The notes under the pieces were generated by a model. That model saw nothing but the letters and a program-made list of their open reading frames with translations. It was not told where the DNA came from and did not search any database. Shown here one piece after another: positions 2,167 through 15,223 of a stretch of 28,675 nucleotides of DNA; position 1 is the stretch's first letter, and every line of letters starts with the position of its first letter. The stretch comes from a virus, in IMG/VR virus record IMGVR_UViG_3300022924_000028, positions 1-28,675 of that record; one strand, 5' to 3'. The position numbers and the translations under genes were made by a program.

Positions 2167-2882
2167 TGCCACCGCGGCCGAGCGACAGCCCGATCATCTC
2201 CCTCGAGCGCCAGCTCGAGCTGGCGCTCGGCGCCACACCTCGCGAAACAACCCCCGCCACTCTTCGCCCCCATGAACCCGAAGGTCACGACATGCTCATC
2301 GAACCGCTCTCCTCGAGCAGCGCCCTCGCGCCCAAGCCCCGGCCCTCGAAACCACTCACCGTCGAACCGGTCGTCGAAGTAGACGAACAGGGCGACACCG
2401 TCTCGGCCGACGCTCCGCAGCCCGCCACCGCCCCAGACGTCACGCCGGCGGACGAGCACGACGCGATGACCGACAAGCAGAAGCGAACACACTACTCCGG
2501 CGGATGCCGCGAACAGCCCTGCCGAGACGCGATCGCCAAAGCAGCACGCGACCGCAAAGCACAGCGAACAGCAGAGGCAACCGCGGCCGCGACCGCAGAG
2601 GACACTCCCTCCACGCCCGACGACCTCCCGTCCGCCGTCAACCAGGACGAGCCCTACACCCACCACGCCGACACCGAGCAGCAGCTGCACACCGAGATCG
2701 CAGAGCTCAAGCGCCTCGCCGTAGACCGCGCCAACACCATCGTCCGCCTACAGACCGAAGTAGTCGAACACATGGCGCGGGTGCGCGAGCTGACCGATCA
2801 GGCGTCAGCGGCGCCCACAGCAGAGCCCGTCACCTTCTGCGCTCCCGGCGTCACCGTCACCGTCACGATCGAGAGCCGCTAG
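2166..2882 (+). CDS. Cys-motif protein with C-terminal coiled coil
   Basis: Up to 238 residues. Residues 108-135 carry a motif (HYSGGCREQPCRDAIAKA, then Arg/Lys-rich) that recurs in many actinophage proteins and also in the gene at 4372. About 168-215 is a charged heptad-like coiled coil (EQQLHTEIAELKRLAVDRA and onward), followed by a short beta-rich tail with one Cys. The first ATG shares a base with the previous stop. A second in-frame ATG at 2292 (residue 43) has a better Shine-Dalgarno-like GAAGG just upstream, so the protein may really be 196 residues; the first 125 bases would then be a leader containing the 26-bp palindrome at 2204-2229. The function is unknown; it sits directly before the replication initiator. 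Confidence 0.65.
   Translation: MPPRPSDSPIISLERQLELALGATPRETTPATLRPHEPEGHDMLIEPLSSSSALAPKPRPSKPLTVEPVVEVDEQGDTVSADAPQPATAPDVTPADEHDAMTDKQKRTHYSGGCREQPCRDAIAKAARDRKAQRTAEATAAATAEDTPSTPDDLPSAVNQDEPYTHHADTEQQLHTEIAELKRLAVDRANTIVRLQTEVVEHMARVRELTDQASAAPTAEPVTFCAPGVTVTVTIESR
2204..2229. repeat. Perfect 26-bp palindrome
   Basis: The left arm CGAGCGCCAGCTC (2204-2216) is followed directly by its exact reverse complement (2217-2229), with no spacer and no mismatch. It lies 38 bases after the first possible start of the Cys-motif gene, or about 63 bases before the alternative start at 2292. If translated it encodes part of SLERQLELALG. It could be an operator, a site for one of the HTH proteins, or an RNA hairpin. 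Confidence 0.6.
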
Positions 2883-2886
2883 AACC

Positions 2887-3663
2887 ATGCCTGTCGCAAC
2901 ACCCGAGGAACACCGCGGCTTCGCGCAGATGCCCGTCTGGCTGCAGCGCAGCACAACGGTCAGCGGCCCCGCCAAGCTCACGTACCTCGCCCTGTCGTCC
3001 CGCGCCGACGAGAACGGGGAGTGCTACCCCTCCCACGAGCTGATCGCAACAGAGGCGTCCTGCAGCGTCGCCACAGTGAAGCGTGTGCTCGAGGATCTCA
3101 AGGCCCTCGGGGTCGTGTCTTGGACGAAACGTCCCCGCAAGGACGGCACCGGCCAGAGCAGCAACCTCTACAAGATCAGCATCAGCAAGGCTGTGGATAA
3201 CTCCTCGAATGCGGTAGCTCACAGTGAGCTACCCGGCCTCGAAACACCCGCTCGGGTAGCTCAGGGTGAGCTGGGGGGTAGCTCACACAGAGCTACGAAG
3301 AAGAACCATTTAACTAAAGACTTAAGCGCGTCATCAGTCCTTCTCGGAACTCACGTAACTGAGGCTGTGGATAACTCCAGCGACGATGACCGAAATTCTT
3401 CTCGCCCCACCCCGGCGAAGATCCGTCACCACAAGGCCGGCATCGACTGGGCCGTCGTCCTGGTCCGTGCCCCCGCCTTCACCTACTTCGCCCCCGACGA
3501 CCTGCACACCATCGGCGCCGAAATCCTCCGCAGGGCGAAGACCACCGTCGTCGACGAGACCGCGTACGTCGGCTATGCCCTCGAGCAGAACCCCTTCGAG
3601 TGGCAGAAGGCAGCGCACGACCTCGACGCCTCCCGCGCCAGCCAGGGAGGGAACCCGTTTTGA
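2887..3663 (+). CDS. Winged-helix replication initiator protein (origin-containing gene)
   Basis: A 258-residue protein of the phage replication-initiator type with an N-terminal helix-turn-helix domain. Residues 27-100 form the winged helix: Lys-Leu-Thr-Tyr helix, the recurring GECYPSHELIA entry, recognition helix SVATVKRVLEDLKALG (60-75), then a wing ending in NLYKI. Residues 100-165 are a polar, low-complexity linker whose DNA carries the candidate origin (3192-3374). Residues 170-245 are a second folded part with no motif I recognise. Initiators with this layout (lambda O, and many Gram-positive phage helix-turn-helix or DnaD-type proteins) bind iterons inside their own gene and recruit the helicase. 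The ATG is four bases after the previous stop. A nuclease gene follows with a small overlap. Confidence 0.75.
   Translation: MPVATPEEHRGFAQMPVWLQRSTTVSGPAKLTYLALSSRADENGECYPSHELIATEASCSVATVKRVLEDLKALGVVSWTKRPRKDGTGQSSNLYKISISKAVDNSSNAVAHSELPGLETPARVAQGELGGSSHRATKKNHLTKDLSASSVLLGTHVTEAVDNSSDDDRNSSRPTPAKIRHHKAGIDWAVVLVRAPAFTYFAPDDLHTIGAEILRRAKTTVVDETAYVGYALEQNPFEWQKAAHDLDASRASQGGNPF
3192..3374 (+). other. Candidate phage replication origin inside the initiator gene
   Basis: Two exact DnaA boxes (TGTGGATAA, the complement of TTATCCACA) lie at 3192-3200 and 3366-3374. Between them are three inverted-repeat elements built on GTAGCTC/GAGCTAC (3213-3233, 3255-3275, 3278-3296). These are followed by the most AT-rich stretch seen here (about 3297-3360, including ATTTAACTAAAGACTTAA), a plausible unwinding element. 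This matches the origin plan in which iterons sit in the linker-coding part of the initiator gene. That it functions as an origin is inference. Confidence 0.7.
3213..3296. repeat. Three inverted-repeat iterons
   Basis: Element 1 (3213-3233) is GGTAGCTCAC, one base, then its exact reverse complement. Element 2 (3255-3275) keeps AGCTCA-GGG-TGAGCT as a core with degenerate flanks. Element 3 (3278-3296) is GTAGCTC, five bases, GAGCTAC. GGTAGCTCACA occurs identically at 3213-3223 and 3277-3287. The centre-to-centre distances are about 42 and 22 bases, i.e. roughly four and two helical turns, so the sites would face the same side of the DNA. They probably bind the initiator encoded by this gene. 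Confidence 0.7.
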
Positions 3664-4037
3664 ACGACATCGGACCCGCCTCCATCACCGCCGCCGAGTA
3701 CCACGCCCTGCAGTCCAGCCAGATGAGCGAAGAGCAGCTGCAGCGCATCGTCACCGTCACCGCGAACCGACTCGGCTGGTTGGTCTACCACACCCACGAC
3801 TCCCGCCGATCGCAGGCCGGCTACCCCGACCTGCACCTGGTCCACGCCGGCCACGGCCTCTCGCTGTTCCGCGAGCTCAAGTCGATGAAGGGCAAGACCA
3901 GCAAGGCGCAGGACGAATGGATCGCCGCCCTCAACGAGACCGGCCAGTCCGCCACCGTCTGGCGCCCCATCGACTGGTTCGACGGCACCATCAGCGCCGA
4001 GCTCGACCGCGGCCCCCACCTCCGGTCCGCCCGATGA
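3660..4037 (+). CDS. VRR-NUC domain nuclease
   Basis: A 125-residue nuclease of the VRR-NUC branch of the PD-(D/E)XK superfamily, stand-alone as usual in phages. The catalytic signature is visible: GYPDL at 54-58, then a beta strand ending ELK (72-74), and the KTSKAQDEW helix (79-87). Such enzymes cut branched DNA, and phage examples have been shown or proposed to act as Holliday-junction resolvases. No ATG or GTG fits; the TTG at 3660 overlaps the initiator stop by four bases and is preceded at 10 bases by AGGGAGGG, a strong Shine-Dalgarno, so I use it. The 3' end overlaps the next gene by four bases. It likely processes replication or recombination intermediates before packaging. Confidence 0.85.
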   Translation: MNDIGPASITAAEYHALQSSQMSEEQLQRIVTVTANRLGWLVYHTHDSRRSQAGYPDLHLVHAGHGLSLFRELKSMKGKTSKAQDEWIAALNETGQSATVWRPIDWFDGTISAELDRGPHLRSAR

Positions 4038-5340: not shown

Positions 5341-5359
5341 CGAAAGGCACACCATGACC
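5341..5359 (+). promoter_or_regulatory. Ribosome-binding leader shared with 11196-11214
   Basis: CGAAAGGCACACCATGACC occurs identically here and at 11196-11214, each time placing AAAGG eight bases ahead of the ATG of the next gene. The two genes downstream (ParB-like, and terminase-like fragment) are not similar, so the leader was copied or selected on its own. Confidence 0.55.
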
Positions 5360-6733
5360 TCCGCCACCGTGATCCCCGAGATCGGAACCAGCCAGCGCGT
5401 CCCGCTCGCCTCGTTCATCGTCGACACCAACATCCGCAAGGACAACACCCTCGCGAAGGAGTTCGTCGCCTCCGTCAAGCAGCACGGCGTCATCGTCCCC
5501 GTCGACGCCTACTTCAACGCCGAAGACAGCACCTGGCACCTGCAGGACGGCCAGCTCCGCTTCCTCGCATCCATGGACGCCGGCCACACCGACATCCCCG
5601 TCCTCGTCTCCGACCCCGAGATGGCCGACACCGTCCGCATCCAGCGCCAGCTCATCCTCAACGAACGCCGCAACGAGCTCACCGAGGCCGACCGCGTCGG
5701 CGCCTACCAGACCCTCTTCGATATGGGCGTCTCCGCCGACCAGATCGCGCGCAAGACCAACACCCCCGCCAAGCGCGTGCAGACCGCACTCACCGTTTCC
5801 GCCAGCCCCGTCGCGCTGAAGGCACTCACCGCCGCCCCAATCACGCTCGACCAGGCCGCCGCGATCGCCGAGTTCGGCGACACCCCCGAGCAGGCCGAGA
5901 CCCTCACCACCCTCGCGATCGAGCGCCCCGGCAACTTCGTCCACCGCCTCGAGCAGCTGCGCGTCGAGCGCGATTACCTCGCCACCTCCGAAGCGCTCGC
6001 CGCCGAGCTCATCGCTGCCGGCTACACCCAGATCCCGCGCGTCGACACCACCTACCAGGGGCCGGCTCTCGCGATCGACTACCTCTACACCGACGAGAAA
6101 CTCACCGTCCCCCTCGCCGCGGAACGCACCGACCGACTCCCCGCCGACACCACAGGCCTCGCCTTCTTTCTCCAGAACTACGGCGGCGAAGCACGCCCGA
6201 CCTTCGTCATCCAAGACTGGGACGCCAACGGCTACTACACGGAGGCATACCGGAACACCGGGCGCAAGTCGGCCGACGCCGGCGGCGGACTCACCGATGA
6301 AGAGAAAGCCGCCCGCAAGGTCGTCCGCGAGAACAACAAGCTGTGGGCCCCCGCCAGCACCGTCCGCCGCGCCTGGGTGACCGAGTTCCTGCAGCGCAAG
6401 GAACTCCCCGCCGACGCCCTCATCTACGCCGCCCACTACTTCGGCCCCCTGCCCACCTCGATGCCCGGCCAGTCCACCATCCTCACCAGCTGGCTCTCGA
6501 TCGAAAGCCGCAACGCAGGCATCCCCGCCTACCTCAAGAGCAACCCGAAGCAGGCACTCAACGTCCTCCTCGCCGGGGCGCTCGCCGCGGCCGAGGGCGA
6601 GTACGACTTCGCGAAGGACGGATGGCGTCGCGCCGTCGCGAAGCCGTACCTGGCGCAGCTGCAGTCGTGGGGCTACACGCTCTCCGACATCGAGCTCGCC
6701 GTCGTGGCAGGCACCGCGGACAAGGGCGTCTGA
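5354..6733 (+). CDS. ParB/Srx-fold domain protein
   Basis: A 459-residue protein. Residues 15-90 are a ParB-type N-terminal domain: a start-site strand (VPLASFIVDTNIR), the G-VIVPVDAY strand, then a DGQLRFLASMDAG element (65-77) where classical ParB has GERR, and IPVLV. Residues 105-150 contain a helix-turn-helix (MGVSADQIARKTNTPAKRVQ). The long C-terminal half (about 190-459) is not recognised. With no ParA in the window, plasmid-style partitioning is unlikely; related phage proteins act as nucleases, CTP-binding switches or regulators. The ATG is preceded by CGAAAGGCACACC, shared word for word with the gene at 11209. Confidence 0.75.
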   Translation: MTSATVIPEIGTSQRVPLASFIVDTNIRKDNTLAKEFVASVKQHGVIVPVDAYFNAEDSTWHLQDGQLRFLASMDAGHTDIPVLVSDPEMADTVRIQRQLILNERRNELTEADRVGAYQTLFDMGVSADQIARKTNTPAKRVQTALTVSASPVALKALTAAPITLDQAAAIAEFGDTPEQAETLTTLAIERPGNFVHRLEQLRVERDYLATSEALAAELIAAGYTQIPRVDTTYQGPALAIDYLYTDEKLTVPLAAERTDRLPADTTGLAFFLQNYGGEARPTFVIQDWDANGYYTEAYRNTGRKSADAGGGLTDEEKAARKVVRENNKLWAPASTVRRAWVTEFLQRKELPADALIYAAHYFGPLPTSMPGQSTILTSWLSIESRNAGIPAYLKSNPKQALNVLLAGALAAAEGEYDFAKDGWRRAVAKPYLAQLQSWGYTLSDIELAVVAGTADKGV

Positions 6734-6736
6734 CCC

Positions 6737-7126
6737 ATGAACCTCCTCGAGCGCATCACCTGGATCACGGAGAAGATCGCAGGCGCCAGCATCACCATGG
6801 GCGACGAGTACGACCTGCAGGCCGGCATCCAGGCTGCGCTCGAGGGGCACGGCGTCGAGGTCCGCCGCGAGGTGCGCCTCGCCGACGGGATCTCCCGCAT
6901 CGACCTGGTCGTCATCGACCCGCTCATGCTCGCCACCACGGTGGGCATCGAGGTGAAGGTCGACGGATCCGCGGCCGACGTCGTCCGCCAGCTCACCCGG
7001 TACTCGAAGGAGCCCACCCTCGACGGCCTCGTGCTCGTCACCACCCGCTCCAAGCACCACCACATCCCCACCGAGCTGAACGCCAAGCCCGTCCGCCTCG
7101 TCTCGCTCATCGGCGCCGGCCTGTGA
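6737..7126 (+). CDS. Small PD-(D/E)XK nuclease
   Basis: A 129-residue protein with the core of a PD-(D/E)XK nuclease. An N-terminal helix carries an acid (about 24), then come RIDLVVID (54-61), GIEVKV (70-75) and a helix with a conserved Gln and Tyr (QLTRY, 85-89). The following strand, LDGLVLVTT (95-103), is typical of RecB-like or Mrr/Hjc-like enzymes. It is separated by three bases from the ParB-like gene and overlaps the SNF2 helicase gene by four bases. That suggests a nuclease-helicase pair working on the same DNA. The exact substrate cannot be read from the sequence. Confidence 0.75.
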   Translation: MNLLERITWITEKIAGASITMGDEYDLQAGIQAALEGHGVEVRREVRLADGISRIDLVVIDPLMLATTVGIEVKVDGSAADVVRQLTRYSKEPTLDGLVLVTTRSKHHHIPTELNAKPVRLVSLIGAGL

Positions 7127-8934
7127 CCCGCACCTACGGCACCTACCGATACCAGGCACAGAGCAACCCGCCCGAGACCGGCACCGCCGAGGCGCTCGAC
7201 ATCCCCGTCGAGGTCGACCCGAAGAAGCGCGTGCGCAAGGACCCCGGCATCTGGGTCCTCGACCTCGAGCCGGCCGTCCGCATGCGCGCGCGCCGCACCT
7301 TCGGCAAGGTCGCACTCACCCGCACCAGCGAGGTCACCATCATCAACACGGTGGAGGTGTGCCGCGACCTCGAGTGGTTCATGAAGCGCTGGCCGCTGAA
7401 GGCCGCCGACGCCGGATCCCGGGTGATGCTGAAGGCCGGCGCGTCCGAGCACGCCGCCATGGAGAAGACCGTCGGCGCGATCATCACCGGCAAGCACGTC
7501 CGCCTCGACCTGCCGACGAAGCCGCTGAAGGAACCGCGCGACTACCAGCTGTCCGCCGTCGACCTGCTCCGCGCCCGCGGCGCCCTGCTGCTCACCGACG
7601 AGGTCGGCCTCGGCAAGACCTTCACCGGCCTGCTCAACCTCGTGCACGCCGACGCCCTCCCGGCCGTCGTCATCCCGCCCACCCACCTGCCGAAGCGCTG
7701 GCTCACCGAGCTCACTGACGCCTTCCCCTGGCTGACCGTCGAGATCGCGAAGAAGACCACCCCCTCAGCAGCCGTCGCCGCCGGCCAGCTCGCCGACGTC
7801 ACGATCGTTCCCTACTCGAAGATCGACGGTTGGGCTTCCTACCTCGCAGGCGGCATCGCCACCGTCGTCTTCGACGAAGTCCAGGAACTCCGCAACGGCA
7901 CCGCCACAGTGAAGGGCAACGCCGCGGCCCTGCTCACCGAGTCCGCCACCTACGTCCTCGGCCTCACCGCCACCCCCGTCTACAACTACGGCGGCGAGAT
8001 CTGGTCCATCTACGACATCCTCGCCCCCGGCGCCCTCGGCTCCAAGGAAGAGTTCACCCGCGAGTGGGGCGGCGGCACCTCCGGACGCAACGGCCTGATG
8101 ATCAAGGACCCCGGCGCCCTCGGCAGCTACCTCCGTGAGCAGGGTCTCATGCTCGGCCGCACCCGCAAGGAGGTCGGCCGCGAACTCCCGAAGACGATCA
8201 AGGTGCCGATGCTCATCGACTCCGACACCGCCGCCCTCACCGCCGTCGCCGGAAACGCCGCCGCCCTCGCCCGCCTCATCCTCGACGACACCGCCACCCC
8301 GCAGGAGAAGTTCCAGGCATCTGGCGAAATCAACTGGATGCTCCGCCACGCCACCGGCGTCGACAAGGCCCCCTACGTCGCCGAGTTCGTCCGCCTCCTC
8401 CTCGAGAGCGAAGAGAAGATCGTCCTCTTCGGCTGGCACCGCGACGTCTACGACATCTGGATGGAAGCACTCGCCGAGTTCAACCCGATCCTGTACACGG
8501 GCAGCGAGTCGCCGAAGCAGAAGAGCGACGCCGAGGACACCTTCACCCAGCCGTACAACGCCGAGGACCCGAACGCTTGCCGGATCCTCATCATGTCGCT
8601 GCGCTCCGGCGCCGGCGTCGACGGCCTGCAGAAGGTCGCCCGCGTCGCCGTGTTCGGCGAGCTCGACTGGTCGCCGGCCACACACGAGCAGGCCATCGGC
8701 CGCCTCCGCCGCGACGGCATGGGCGAAGACCCGCCCGTCGCCTACTTCCTCAACTCCACCGAGGGCTCCGACCCGATCGTCATGGACGTCCTCCAGGTGA
8801 AGCGCCAGCAGTCCGAACCCCTGATCAGCACCGACGGGAAGCTGCTCGGCAACGCCACCAACGAACCCAACCGCGCACGACGCCTTGCCGAGAACCTCCT
8901 CGGCATCACCCCCACAGAAACGGAAGCCGCCTGA
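7123..8934 (+). CDS. SNF2-type superfamily 2 helicase/ATPase
   Basis: A 603-residue DNA-dependent ATPase. Helicase motifs in order: RDYQLSAVDLL (139-149, Q-like), DEVGLGKT (159-166, Walker A), VIPPTHLPKRW (183-193, motif Ia), FDEVQ (250-254, motif II, a DEAH variant), GLTATP (280-285, motif III), KIVLFGWHR (432-440, motif IV), SLRSGAGVDGLQ (492-503, motif V) and EQAIGRLRRDG (522-532, motif VI). The N-terminal 135 residues are not recognised. Phage SNF2 proteins commonly sit with VRR-NUC or Cas4-like nucleases in replication modules and are thought to remodel or unwind DNA there. GTG start in a GTGA overlap with the nuclease gene. No DnaB-type helicase is in the window, so this may be the phage's main helicase. 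Confidence 0.9.
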   Translation: MTRTYGTYRYQAQSNPPETGTAEALDIPVEVDPKKRVRKDPGIWVLDLEPAVRMRARRTFGKVALTRTSEVTIINTVEVCRDLEWFMKRWPLKAADAGSRVMLKAGASEHAAMEKTVGAIITGKHVRLDLPTKPLKEPRDYQLSAVDLLRARGALLLTDEVGLGKTFTGLLNLVHADALPAVVIPPTHLPKRWLTELTDAFPWLTVEIAKKTTPSAAVAAGQLADVTIVPYSKIDGWASYLAGGIATVVFDEVQELRNGTATVKGNAAALLTESATYVLGLTATPVYNYGGEIWSIYDILAPGALGSKEEFTREWGGGTSGRNGLMIKDPGALGSYLREQGLMLGRTRKEVGRELPKTIKVPMLIDSDTAALTAVAGNAAALARLILDDTATPQEKFQASGEINWMLRHATGVDKAPYVAEFVRLLLESEEKIVLFGWHRDVYDIWMEALAEFNPILYTGSESPKQKSDAEDTFTQPYNAEDPNACRILIMSLRSGAGVDGLQKVARVAVFGELDWSPATHEQAIGRLRRDGMGEDPPVAYFLNSTEGSDPIVMDVLQVKRQQSEPLISTDGKLLGNATNEPNRARRLAENLLGITPTETEAA

Positions 8935-14214: not shown

Positions 14215-14855
14215 AGTACTTCAGACGCATCATCCTCACCGTCCTGGTCACCATCGTCGGCGGGTCCGCATTCGCGCTGTCCTTCGACGCACAGGTGACC
14301 CTCGCCGTAGGGTCCGGCATCAACCCGGCCATCGCCGGCCTCTACCCGGCCGTCGTCGACGTCGCCATCCTCACCGGCGTCCTCATCCGCATCTGGAACC
14401 CCAACCTCAGCAGCGCGGTCAACCGCTACCTGTGGGCCGCAATCGGCTTCTGGTCCATCACCAACATCCTCGGCAACGCCTTCCACGTCACCGCCCTCGA
14501 ACCCGGACGCATCACCGTGCCCATACCCCTCGCGATCGCCGTCAACACCGTCCCCGCCCTCACACTCTTCATCGTCATCCACATAGCCACCATCCCCACC
14601 TCACACCGCCCCGCCCAAACCACGACAGCGCTCGCCGAAGAAGCACCGCGCTCGCAGCAGCCACGAACCGCAGTCGAGCGCACAGCACCGAGGACCGACG
14701 TGCCAGAGCCGACGGGCGCCGAGCTGCTCGAGATGAACAAGACCCTGTCCATGGCGGAGATCGCAATCGAAGTGGGTCGCTCCAAGTCGTGGGTGGGCAC
14801 TCGCGTGAAGGCAGCACGCGAAGCCGCGCTCGAGCAGGGAGAGGCGACAGCATGA
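14211..14855 (+). CDS. DUF2637-type membrane protein with C-terminal HTH
   Basis: A 214-residue protein. Four membrane spans are visible at about 6-27, 42-62, 72-92 and 103-125, matching the DUF2637 family, best known from actinomycete conjugative plasmids (SpdB-like 'spread' proteins) and integrative elements. After a Pro/Ala/Arg linker (128-160) follows a soluble HTH, LEMNKTLSMAEIAIEVGRSKSWV (about 173-195, cut here: key part SMAEIAIEVGRSKSWV), giving a membrane-anchored DNA-binding protein. Phage copies occur, but the fused HTH makes it a candidate for placing DNA at the membrane. GTG start in a copied cassette; overlaps the next gene by four bases. Confidence 0.8.
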   Translation: MKYFRRIILTVLVTIVGGSAFALSFDAQVTLAVGSGINPAIAGLYPAVVDVAILTGVLIRIWNPNLSSAVNRYLWAAIGFWSITNILGNAFHVTALEPGRITVPIPLAIAVNTVPALTLFIVIHIATIPTSHRPAQTTTALAEEAPRSQQPRTAVERTAPRTDVPEPTGAELLEMNKTLSMAEIAIEVGRSKSWVGTRVKAAREAALEQGEATA

Positions 14856-15058
14856 TGACCGCGATCGCTTGCACTTCCGAGGAGGTGTTCCCCTGGGGAT
14901 GCAGCTGCAAGTCGAACGGTTGGGATCACGACTGGGACTACGCCACAGCGGCGTCGACCAACAACGCGGGCCTCCTGTGGTGTGGCAACTGCGACTGCTG
15001 TATCGGCTGGCGGCCGACTCCCCTGAGCCCCGGCATGTTCATCGCCATACCGCTCTGA
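14852..15058 (+). CDS. 68-residue Cys/Trp-rich protein
   Basis: A small protein with five cysteines in three clusters (WGCSCKSNGWDHDW, then WCGNCDCCIGW) consistent with a zinc site. The ATG at 14852 is in an ATGA overlap; another ATG follows immediately. It ends the early/accessory run; no gene of note follows for 363 bases. The function is unknown. Confidence 0.6.
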   Translation: MMTAIACTSEEVFPWGCSCKSNGWDHDWDYATAASTNNAGLLWCGNCDCCIGWRPTPLSPGMFIAIPL

Positions 15059-15106
15059 TCGACACCGACAGCGCGGCACACAACGCTGTCTGGCCGGGCA
15101 CAGAGG

Positions 15107-15143
15107 GCGGCCTCCCGGGTCTTCTCGACCCGCGCGAGGCCGC
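15107..15143 (+). terminator. Strong hairpin, possible U-less terminator
   Basis: Outer arms GCGGCCTC (15107-15114) and GAGGCCGC (15136-15143) pair perfectly. Inside them GGGTC and GACCC pair around a TTCTC loop, with a small internal bulge. No T-run follows, which is common for terminators in high-GC Gram-positives. It lies 49 bases after the stop of the 68-residue gene. Confidence 0.45.
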
Positions 15144-15194
15144 TCCCGTCTGCTGTGAGAAACCGCCTCAAAAAGCGACACGCCGAATTCGGGC

Positions 15195-15223
15195 TTGACG
15201 AATGACAGAAATCATTGCAAAGT
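15195..15223 (+). promoter_or_regulatory. Candidate promoter before the late genes
   Basis: TTGACG (15195-15200) matches a sigma-70/SigA -35 in five of six bases. Seventeen bases later CAAAGT (15218-15223) is a weak -10. An alternative -10 is TAGGTT (15231-15236), which fits the TANNNT pattern but lacks a good -35. It sits in the only long intergenic region and reads towards the late genes. Confidence 0.4.

Follow-up and report, generated by a model that had tools for sequence, protein, structure and literature searches.

We analysed a 28,675-base virus record, IMGVR_UViG_3300022924_000028 (the window; a fragment of about 68% GC from a phage of high-GC bacteria, whose portal gene shows about 75% nucleotide identity with Arthrobacter phages), in which the gene for a winged-helix protein appears to carry a replication origin within its own coding sequence. 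The protein comprises an N-terminal winged helix (approximately residues 16–98), a polar linker whose DNA contains the putative origin, and a small C-terminal part. It belongs to the HTH_36 family (PF13730, 39.2 bits against a curated cut-off of 25) and matches phage replication-initiation PHROGs (best E 7e-18), and its other Pfam match is a weak one to HTH_Crp_2. It does not match the lambda O family PF04492 (Phage_rep_O), which recovers lambda O itself with E 6e-36. In the AlphaFold model only the winged helix is predicted with confidence (pLDDT about 90, versus below 50 in the linker), and the model's top Foldseek matches are the staphylococcal plasmid initiators 4pql, 4pt7 and 5kbj, with many repressors ranked below them. 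A PDB sequence search with the protein gave no match, and tblastn returned only distant phage and plasmid proteins.

Putative origin elements in the initiator gene

An earlier note, made from the sequence without database searches, had proposed a self-contained origin in the linker DNA of this gene, with paired DnaA boxes around inverted repeats and an AT-rich stretch. We found both boxes as exact copies of TGTGGATAA, the only two in the whole window, in the same orientation and each enclosed in a 17-bp perfect direct repeat, AGGCTGTGGATAACTCC (Table 1). The three inverted repeats, which we call iterons, lie within a base of the positions first proposed, the middle one being imperfect, and the AT-rich stretch (3297–3360) has 42% GC compared to about 68% around it. 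Helix stability across the window reaches its 40-, 60- and 100-bp minima in segments starting at 3287, 3293 and 3278, respectively (4.6–5.3 standard deviations from the mean), placing the least stable DNA just after the palindromes and before the right box. The order is box, iterons, predicted melting region, box; the boxes flank the melting region as the earlier note had stated, but the iterons, which it had also placed on both sides, lie on one side only.

Table 1. Initiator gene, putative origin elements and neighbouring gene in the window.
Feature	Position	Strand	Sequence or evidence
Initiator gene, HTH_36 winged-helix protein, 258 aa	2887..3663	+	PF13730 E 6e-10; phrog_270 (replication initiation) E 7e-18
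Left copy of 17-bp direct repeat, with DnaA box 1 (3192-3200)	3188..3204	+	TGTGGATAA, exact match
Iteron 1, GTAGCTCA-CAG-TGAGCTAC, perfect palindrome	3214..3232	.	GTAGCTCACAGTGAGCTAC; core recurs in other phage initiator genes
Iteron 2, GTAGCTCA-GGG-TGAGCTGG, right arm imperfect (2 mismatches)	3256..3274	.	GTAGCTCAGGGTGAGCTGG
Iteron 3, GTAGCTC-ACACA-GAGCTAC	3278..3296	.	GTAGCTCACACAGAGCTAC; frame differs from iterons 1 and 2
Predicted duplex-unwinding region	3278..3377	.	Least stable 100 bp of the whole window
Right copy of 17-bp direct repeat, with DnaA box 2 (3366-3374), orientation as box 1	3362..3378	+	TGTGGATAA
VRR_NUC nuclease gene, neighbour of the initiator gene, not a helicase loader	3660..4037	+	PF08774 E 2e-6

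This arrangement was not reproduced by shuffling: dinucleotide-shuffled windows contained a mean of 0.005 exact boxes and never two within 200 bp (0 of 400), and two boxes or three such palindromes appeared in none of 5000 shuffles of the gene. Both boxes are translated in the same frame as AVDNSS, as the earlier note had observed, and the codons used for AVDNS (GCT-GTG-GAT-AAC-TCC) have a probability of about 0.001 under the codon use of the window phage. Iteron 3 is translated as GGSSHRAT, whereas iterons 1 and 2 are read in another frame, as VAHSEL and VAQGEL.

Paired iterons are widespread among viruses

Searches with single 16-base palindromes gave matches that were mostly due to chance and lay outside initiator genes, and we therefore searched for paired iterons, defined as two copies of GCTCA-N3-TGAGC within 32 bp, a definition that fixes the core. 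Such pairs occur in at least 119 viral stretches with GC contents from 0.28 to 0.71, and at least 42 of the 80 stretches examined overlap a winged-helix open reading frame (ORF) as judged by a rough home-made profile. The outer bases differ among lineages (TA, CG, AG, TT, GT and TC), and protein relatives retrieved without any pattern carry the versions TAGGTCA, CGGTTCA and TCGCTCA at unchanged spacing. This looks like a widely shared initiator–iteron pair with variable specificity bases, and the core, as a simple signature in the DNA, could be used to find origins in many phages that lack annotation. Pairs of this kind are very widespread as a phage iteron type and often lie in winged-helix initiator genes (IMG/VR loci L201–L276 and L025–L031). 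One initiator gene (L026, 3792–4054) contains 12 nearly identical iterons in tandem and a repeated LAHSELP peptide, and pieces of a similar array occur in L027 and L031. Gordonia phage Soos (L324, 1501–2220) has a winged-helix gene whose linker contains TGACA-N3-TGTCA-type repeats and no DnaA box; these repeats are a further putative iteron variant with the same geometry.

DnaA boxes recur beside iterons in metagenomic relatives

Of 34 high-GC paired-iteron loci, 4 have exact boxes no more than 300 bp from their iterons, six boxes in all, and the other 328 kb contain none (p=5e-8; by locus, p=1e-5). The enrichment rests on four loci, though the remaining sequence of those loci contrasts strongly; L034, first retrieved with a box-holding pattern, and Arthrobacter phage BlueFeather, retrieved with a box-containing query, were left out because their retrieval involved a box. 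The 46 lower-GC paired-iteron loci had no exact box near their iterons. Viral contigs commonly have tandem DnaA boxes by themselves (at least 120 stretches), and these rarely adjoin a winged-helix gene (1 of 80). The winged helix matched in 12 of 396 Actinomycetota genomes, with no exact DnaA box near the gene at the matched loci. One GC-poor contig (L137, 6204–6891) has a winged-helix gene with a run of some five DnaA boxes directly after it (VDNLVDNTVDNPVDNP if translated), lacks palindromes, and is perhaps a small DnaA-dependent replicon.

Six metagenomic phages carry boxes, with L025, L221, L253 and L271 retrieved by iterons alone and L053 by protein. L025 and L034, which are 92% identical, share the order TGTGGATAAC, TGTGGAYAAC, two iterons, a conserved stretch of about 80 bp and TGTGGATAAC. 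Because the winged-helix ORF of both terminates within the first iteron, it does not include the third box. In L034 the second box has changed from GAT to GAC, giving TGTGGACAA, which we take to be a DnaA-box form as well. L053, whose winged helix is 58% identical to that of L025, has TGTGAATAAC and TGTGGATAAC followed by two iterons of another sequence, CGGTTCA-CAG-TGAACCG, and retains the 12-, 18- and 24-bp offsets of L025 despite the differing iteron; its exact box is non-coding because the ORF stops within the first box. The initiator proteins of L025, L034 and L053 are only 100–139 residues long and end before or within the iterons. The distance from the last iteron to the right box is 87, 90 and 89 bp in the window, L025 and L034, respectively, and the stability minimum lies at the same place in L025, L034 and L053 as in the window. 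In L253 an exact box is read in frame as PVDN, with a one-mismatch box across the iterons on the other side, and in L221 and L271 the boxes lie in non-coding DNA, between the gene and the iterons or just beyond.

The approximately 80 bp from the iterons to the third box are almost unchanged between L025 (4446–4560) and L034 and contain repeated AGAACGT motifs, and the matching place in L053 and L054 is occupied by AGAACGAGACCC-type repeats. Both are possibly repeats of an unwinding region.

Cultured Arthrobacter phages share the layout

A search with the window origin matched gene 21 of BlueFeather through a box with its flanks. This gene contains one exact box, four TAGCC(A/G)GAATCCGGCTA-type repeats (one of them partial) and one one-mismatch box, and the relatives Yavru, Whytu and Piku have two exact boxes each, interleaved with CGGACA-N3-TGTCC palindromes. 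These four phages, which can be grown on a laboratory Arthrobacter strain, resemble the window in having a winged-helix gene with two in-frame boxes interleaved with 7-3-7 palindromes, and differ from it in iteron sequence (CGGACA-N3-TGTCC and TAGCCGG-AAT-CCGGCTA) and in their genomes of 15–16 kb. Their winged-helix genes are annotated only as helix-turn-helix proteins, the BlueFeather paper mentions neither replication nor DnaA nor iterons, and the complete 15.2-kb genome of Yavru has no annotated replication gene besides the winged-helix protein. Elesar, a relative by structural genes, lacks exact boxes throughout its genome, and those of its genes that were inspected hold no paired iteron.

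Across the 11 box-positive records (279 kb: the window, the six metagenomic phages, BlueFeather, Yavru, Whytu and Piku), the exact boxes number 18; every one is located at the initiator gene, and 17 share its orientation. A tree of 40 winged helices requires six changes of box label, at least three of them forced by well-supported branches, indicating that boxes were gained or lost several times. In three sampled Actinomycetota genomes the presumed oriC, lying between dnaA-like and dnaN-like genes identified by eye from translations, has 15–18 boxes, nearly all TTATCCACA, and the phage sites are therefore of a form that host DnaA should bind. The iterons vary by lineage and the boxes are fixed, as expected if a phage protein reads the former and a conserved host protein the latter.

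A probable origin within the initiator gene, with DnaA of the host as proposed second factor

The sequence evidence supports a putative origin with two classes of site inside the initiator gene, and we consider it likely that 3188–3378 is a theta-type phage origin at which host DnaA acts as a second factor. Family membership, lambda-like iterons, the melting minimum and conservation all support the earlier note's placement of an origin in the linker DNA of a winged-helix initiator. For box-positive phages generally, the best explanation is a theta origin like that of lambda, located within the initiator gene or at its end. The winged-helix initiator would bind the three iterons, probably as one dimer each, and could distort the DNA by analogy with lambda (PMC5043065, PMC7466680) and RK2 (PMC4980987). 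Host DnaA would bind the two boxes flanking the iterons and the low-stability region, and the two proteins together would open that region. DnaA would then probably help to hand host DnaB to the opened strands, the least certain step. The identity and order of the elements, their non-randomness, the stability minimum and the conservation in relatives can be read directly from the DNA.

We looked for DnaB and for an IstB/DnaC-type loader in the records of the window, L025, L034, L053, BlueFeather, Yavru, Whytu and Piku and found neither, and a Gingerbug-type loader was likewise not found in the window record. In this actinobacteriophage group the replication module may tentatively be seen, at somewhat less than even likelihood, as reduced to one small winged-helix origin-recognition protein and a DnaA-borrowing origin, with the host helicase loaded without a phage loader.

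Several points weigh against an origin with DnaA as second factor. The window contains only two boxes, its cumulative GC skew, a check suggested in the earlier note, shows no switch at 3.2 kb, and a helicase or loader may lie outside the record because it is a fragment. Boxes are found in 1 of 7 records with a phage helicase or loader versus 10 of 24 without, which is in the expected direction and not significant (p=0.19; about 31 records, one of the ten judged by eye, and metagenomic records may be fragments), and L271 has boxes and DnaB together. Boxes and iterons recur at similar spacing in divergent relatives, the comparison by which the earlier note had said its reading could be refuted, but L054, the closest relative sampled (winged helix 56% identical), carries iterons and lacks boxes, indicating that boxes are gained or lost and that not all initiators of this family go with DnaA; directly downstream L054 has instead a gene like that annotated as a helicase loader in Microbacterium phage Gingerbug. 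Initiator binding, DnaA binding and replication from the region are predictions.

The boxes might instead be regulatory beside an iteron origin, with DnaA blocking or timing transcription of the initiator or next gene, or being titrated away from the host chromosome, and having no role in opening. Each phage has only one to three boxes, many iteron origins are boxless, so that boxes are dispensable for the basic mechanism, and DnaA in lambda works via transcription from pR (PMC7466680). We nevertheless consider this unlikely, because the distances of the boxes from the iterons and stability minimum that they flank hardly vary, because titration does not need the orientation shared by 17 of 18 boxes, and because a sigma-70 scan, the only one made, found no promoter-like site in 2700–3700. 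A role of the palindromes as operators, through which the initiator represses its own gene or another regulator acts, with the origin elsewhere, is very unlikely. Repressors are common among winged-helix proteins and among the Foldseek matches, where they rank below the plasmid initiators; the sites lie more than 320 bp into the coding region, far from any likely promoter, and iterons within a gene followed by low-stability DNA are also found in lambda and plasmid pSK41 (PMC5703833). Plasmid pPR9, whose natural hybrid initiator has an HTH_36 N-terminal domain, replicates autonomously from its own rep region (PMC5703833). That staphylococcal initiators bind sites in their own genes and that this hybrid replicates supports the origin reading.

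We regard as least credible of all that the boxes are a by-product of coding, through a duplicated AVDNSS peptide important for the protein or a recent 17-bp duplication. In its favour, the boxes of the window, Yavru, Whytu, Piku, BlueFeather and L253 are in frame and read VDN. However, boxes are non-coding in L025 and L034 (third box), L053, L221 and L271, the AVDNS codon choice is improbable, and the substitution in the second box of L034 keeps a presumed DnaA-box form. The non-coding boxes also support the earlier note's view that the repeat is held at the DNA level.

Comparison with known origins

The elements are known singly, with internal origins in lambda and pSK41 and iterons with DnaA boxes in P1 and RK2. 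The window resembles a lambda-type origin in having palindromic iterons within the linker-coding part of the initiator gene and AT-rich DNA directly downstream; lambda has TCCCTCA-AAA-CGAGGGA iterons in gene O followed by A-rich DNA, and both sets are tandem 7-3-7 palindromes (TAGCTCA-CAG-TGAGCTA in the window). The two differ in initiator family (PF04492 versus HTH_36), in that no DnaA boxes are described for ori-lambda, and in that the loader gene P adjoins the lambda initiator gene whereas VRR_NUC takes that place in the window. Iteron plasmids (P1 oriR, F, pSC101 and RK2) share with the window the combination of initiator iterons, DnaA boxes and an AT-rich or predicted unwinding region, but their initiators belong to other families (such as Rep_3), and the directly repeated iterons of Rep-monomer plasmids are replaced in the window by palindromes. 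In RK2 the boxes are the helicase delivery site and their orientation matters (PMC4980987). The Rep protein of pSK41 likewise has a winged-helix N-terminal domain and binding sites in its own gene (PMC5703833), and its C-terminal domain binds DnaG, a feature of pSK41. DnaA boxes were not detected in these staphylococcal plasmids, unlike the window (PMC5703833).

Because the dual design is standard in iteron plasmids, the earlier note's description of an unusual dual-control origin holds among phages and is not new in principle. No paper that we found in the literature searched, which covers a minority of subscription journals, describes a phage origin of this internal type with DnaA boxes. Little is known, beyond lambda and its kin, of how small phages without helicase or loader genes recruit the host replisome. 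If DnaA is the recruiter, the phage would be tied to the master initiation factor of its host, with effects on timing, copy control and host range, and the same layout in cultured Arthrobacter globiformis phages makes the question directly testable.

Elsewhere in the window, 5354–8934 contains a ParB-like gene (phrog_6218) and then a SNF2-type helicase gene, and the early genes of Elesar also include a ParB-like gene. GC skew shifts near 14.7 kb from about -0.25 to about -0.05 (14500–15200), and the second least stable stretch lies near 15158–15200, at the border of the early and structural genes.
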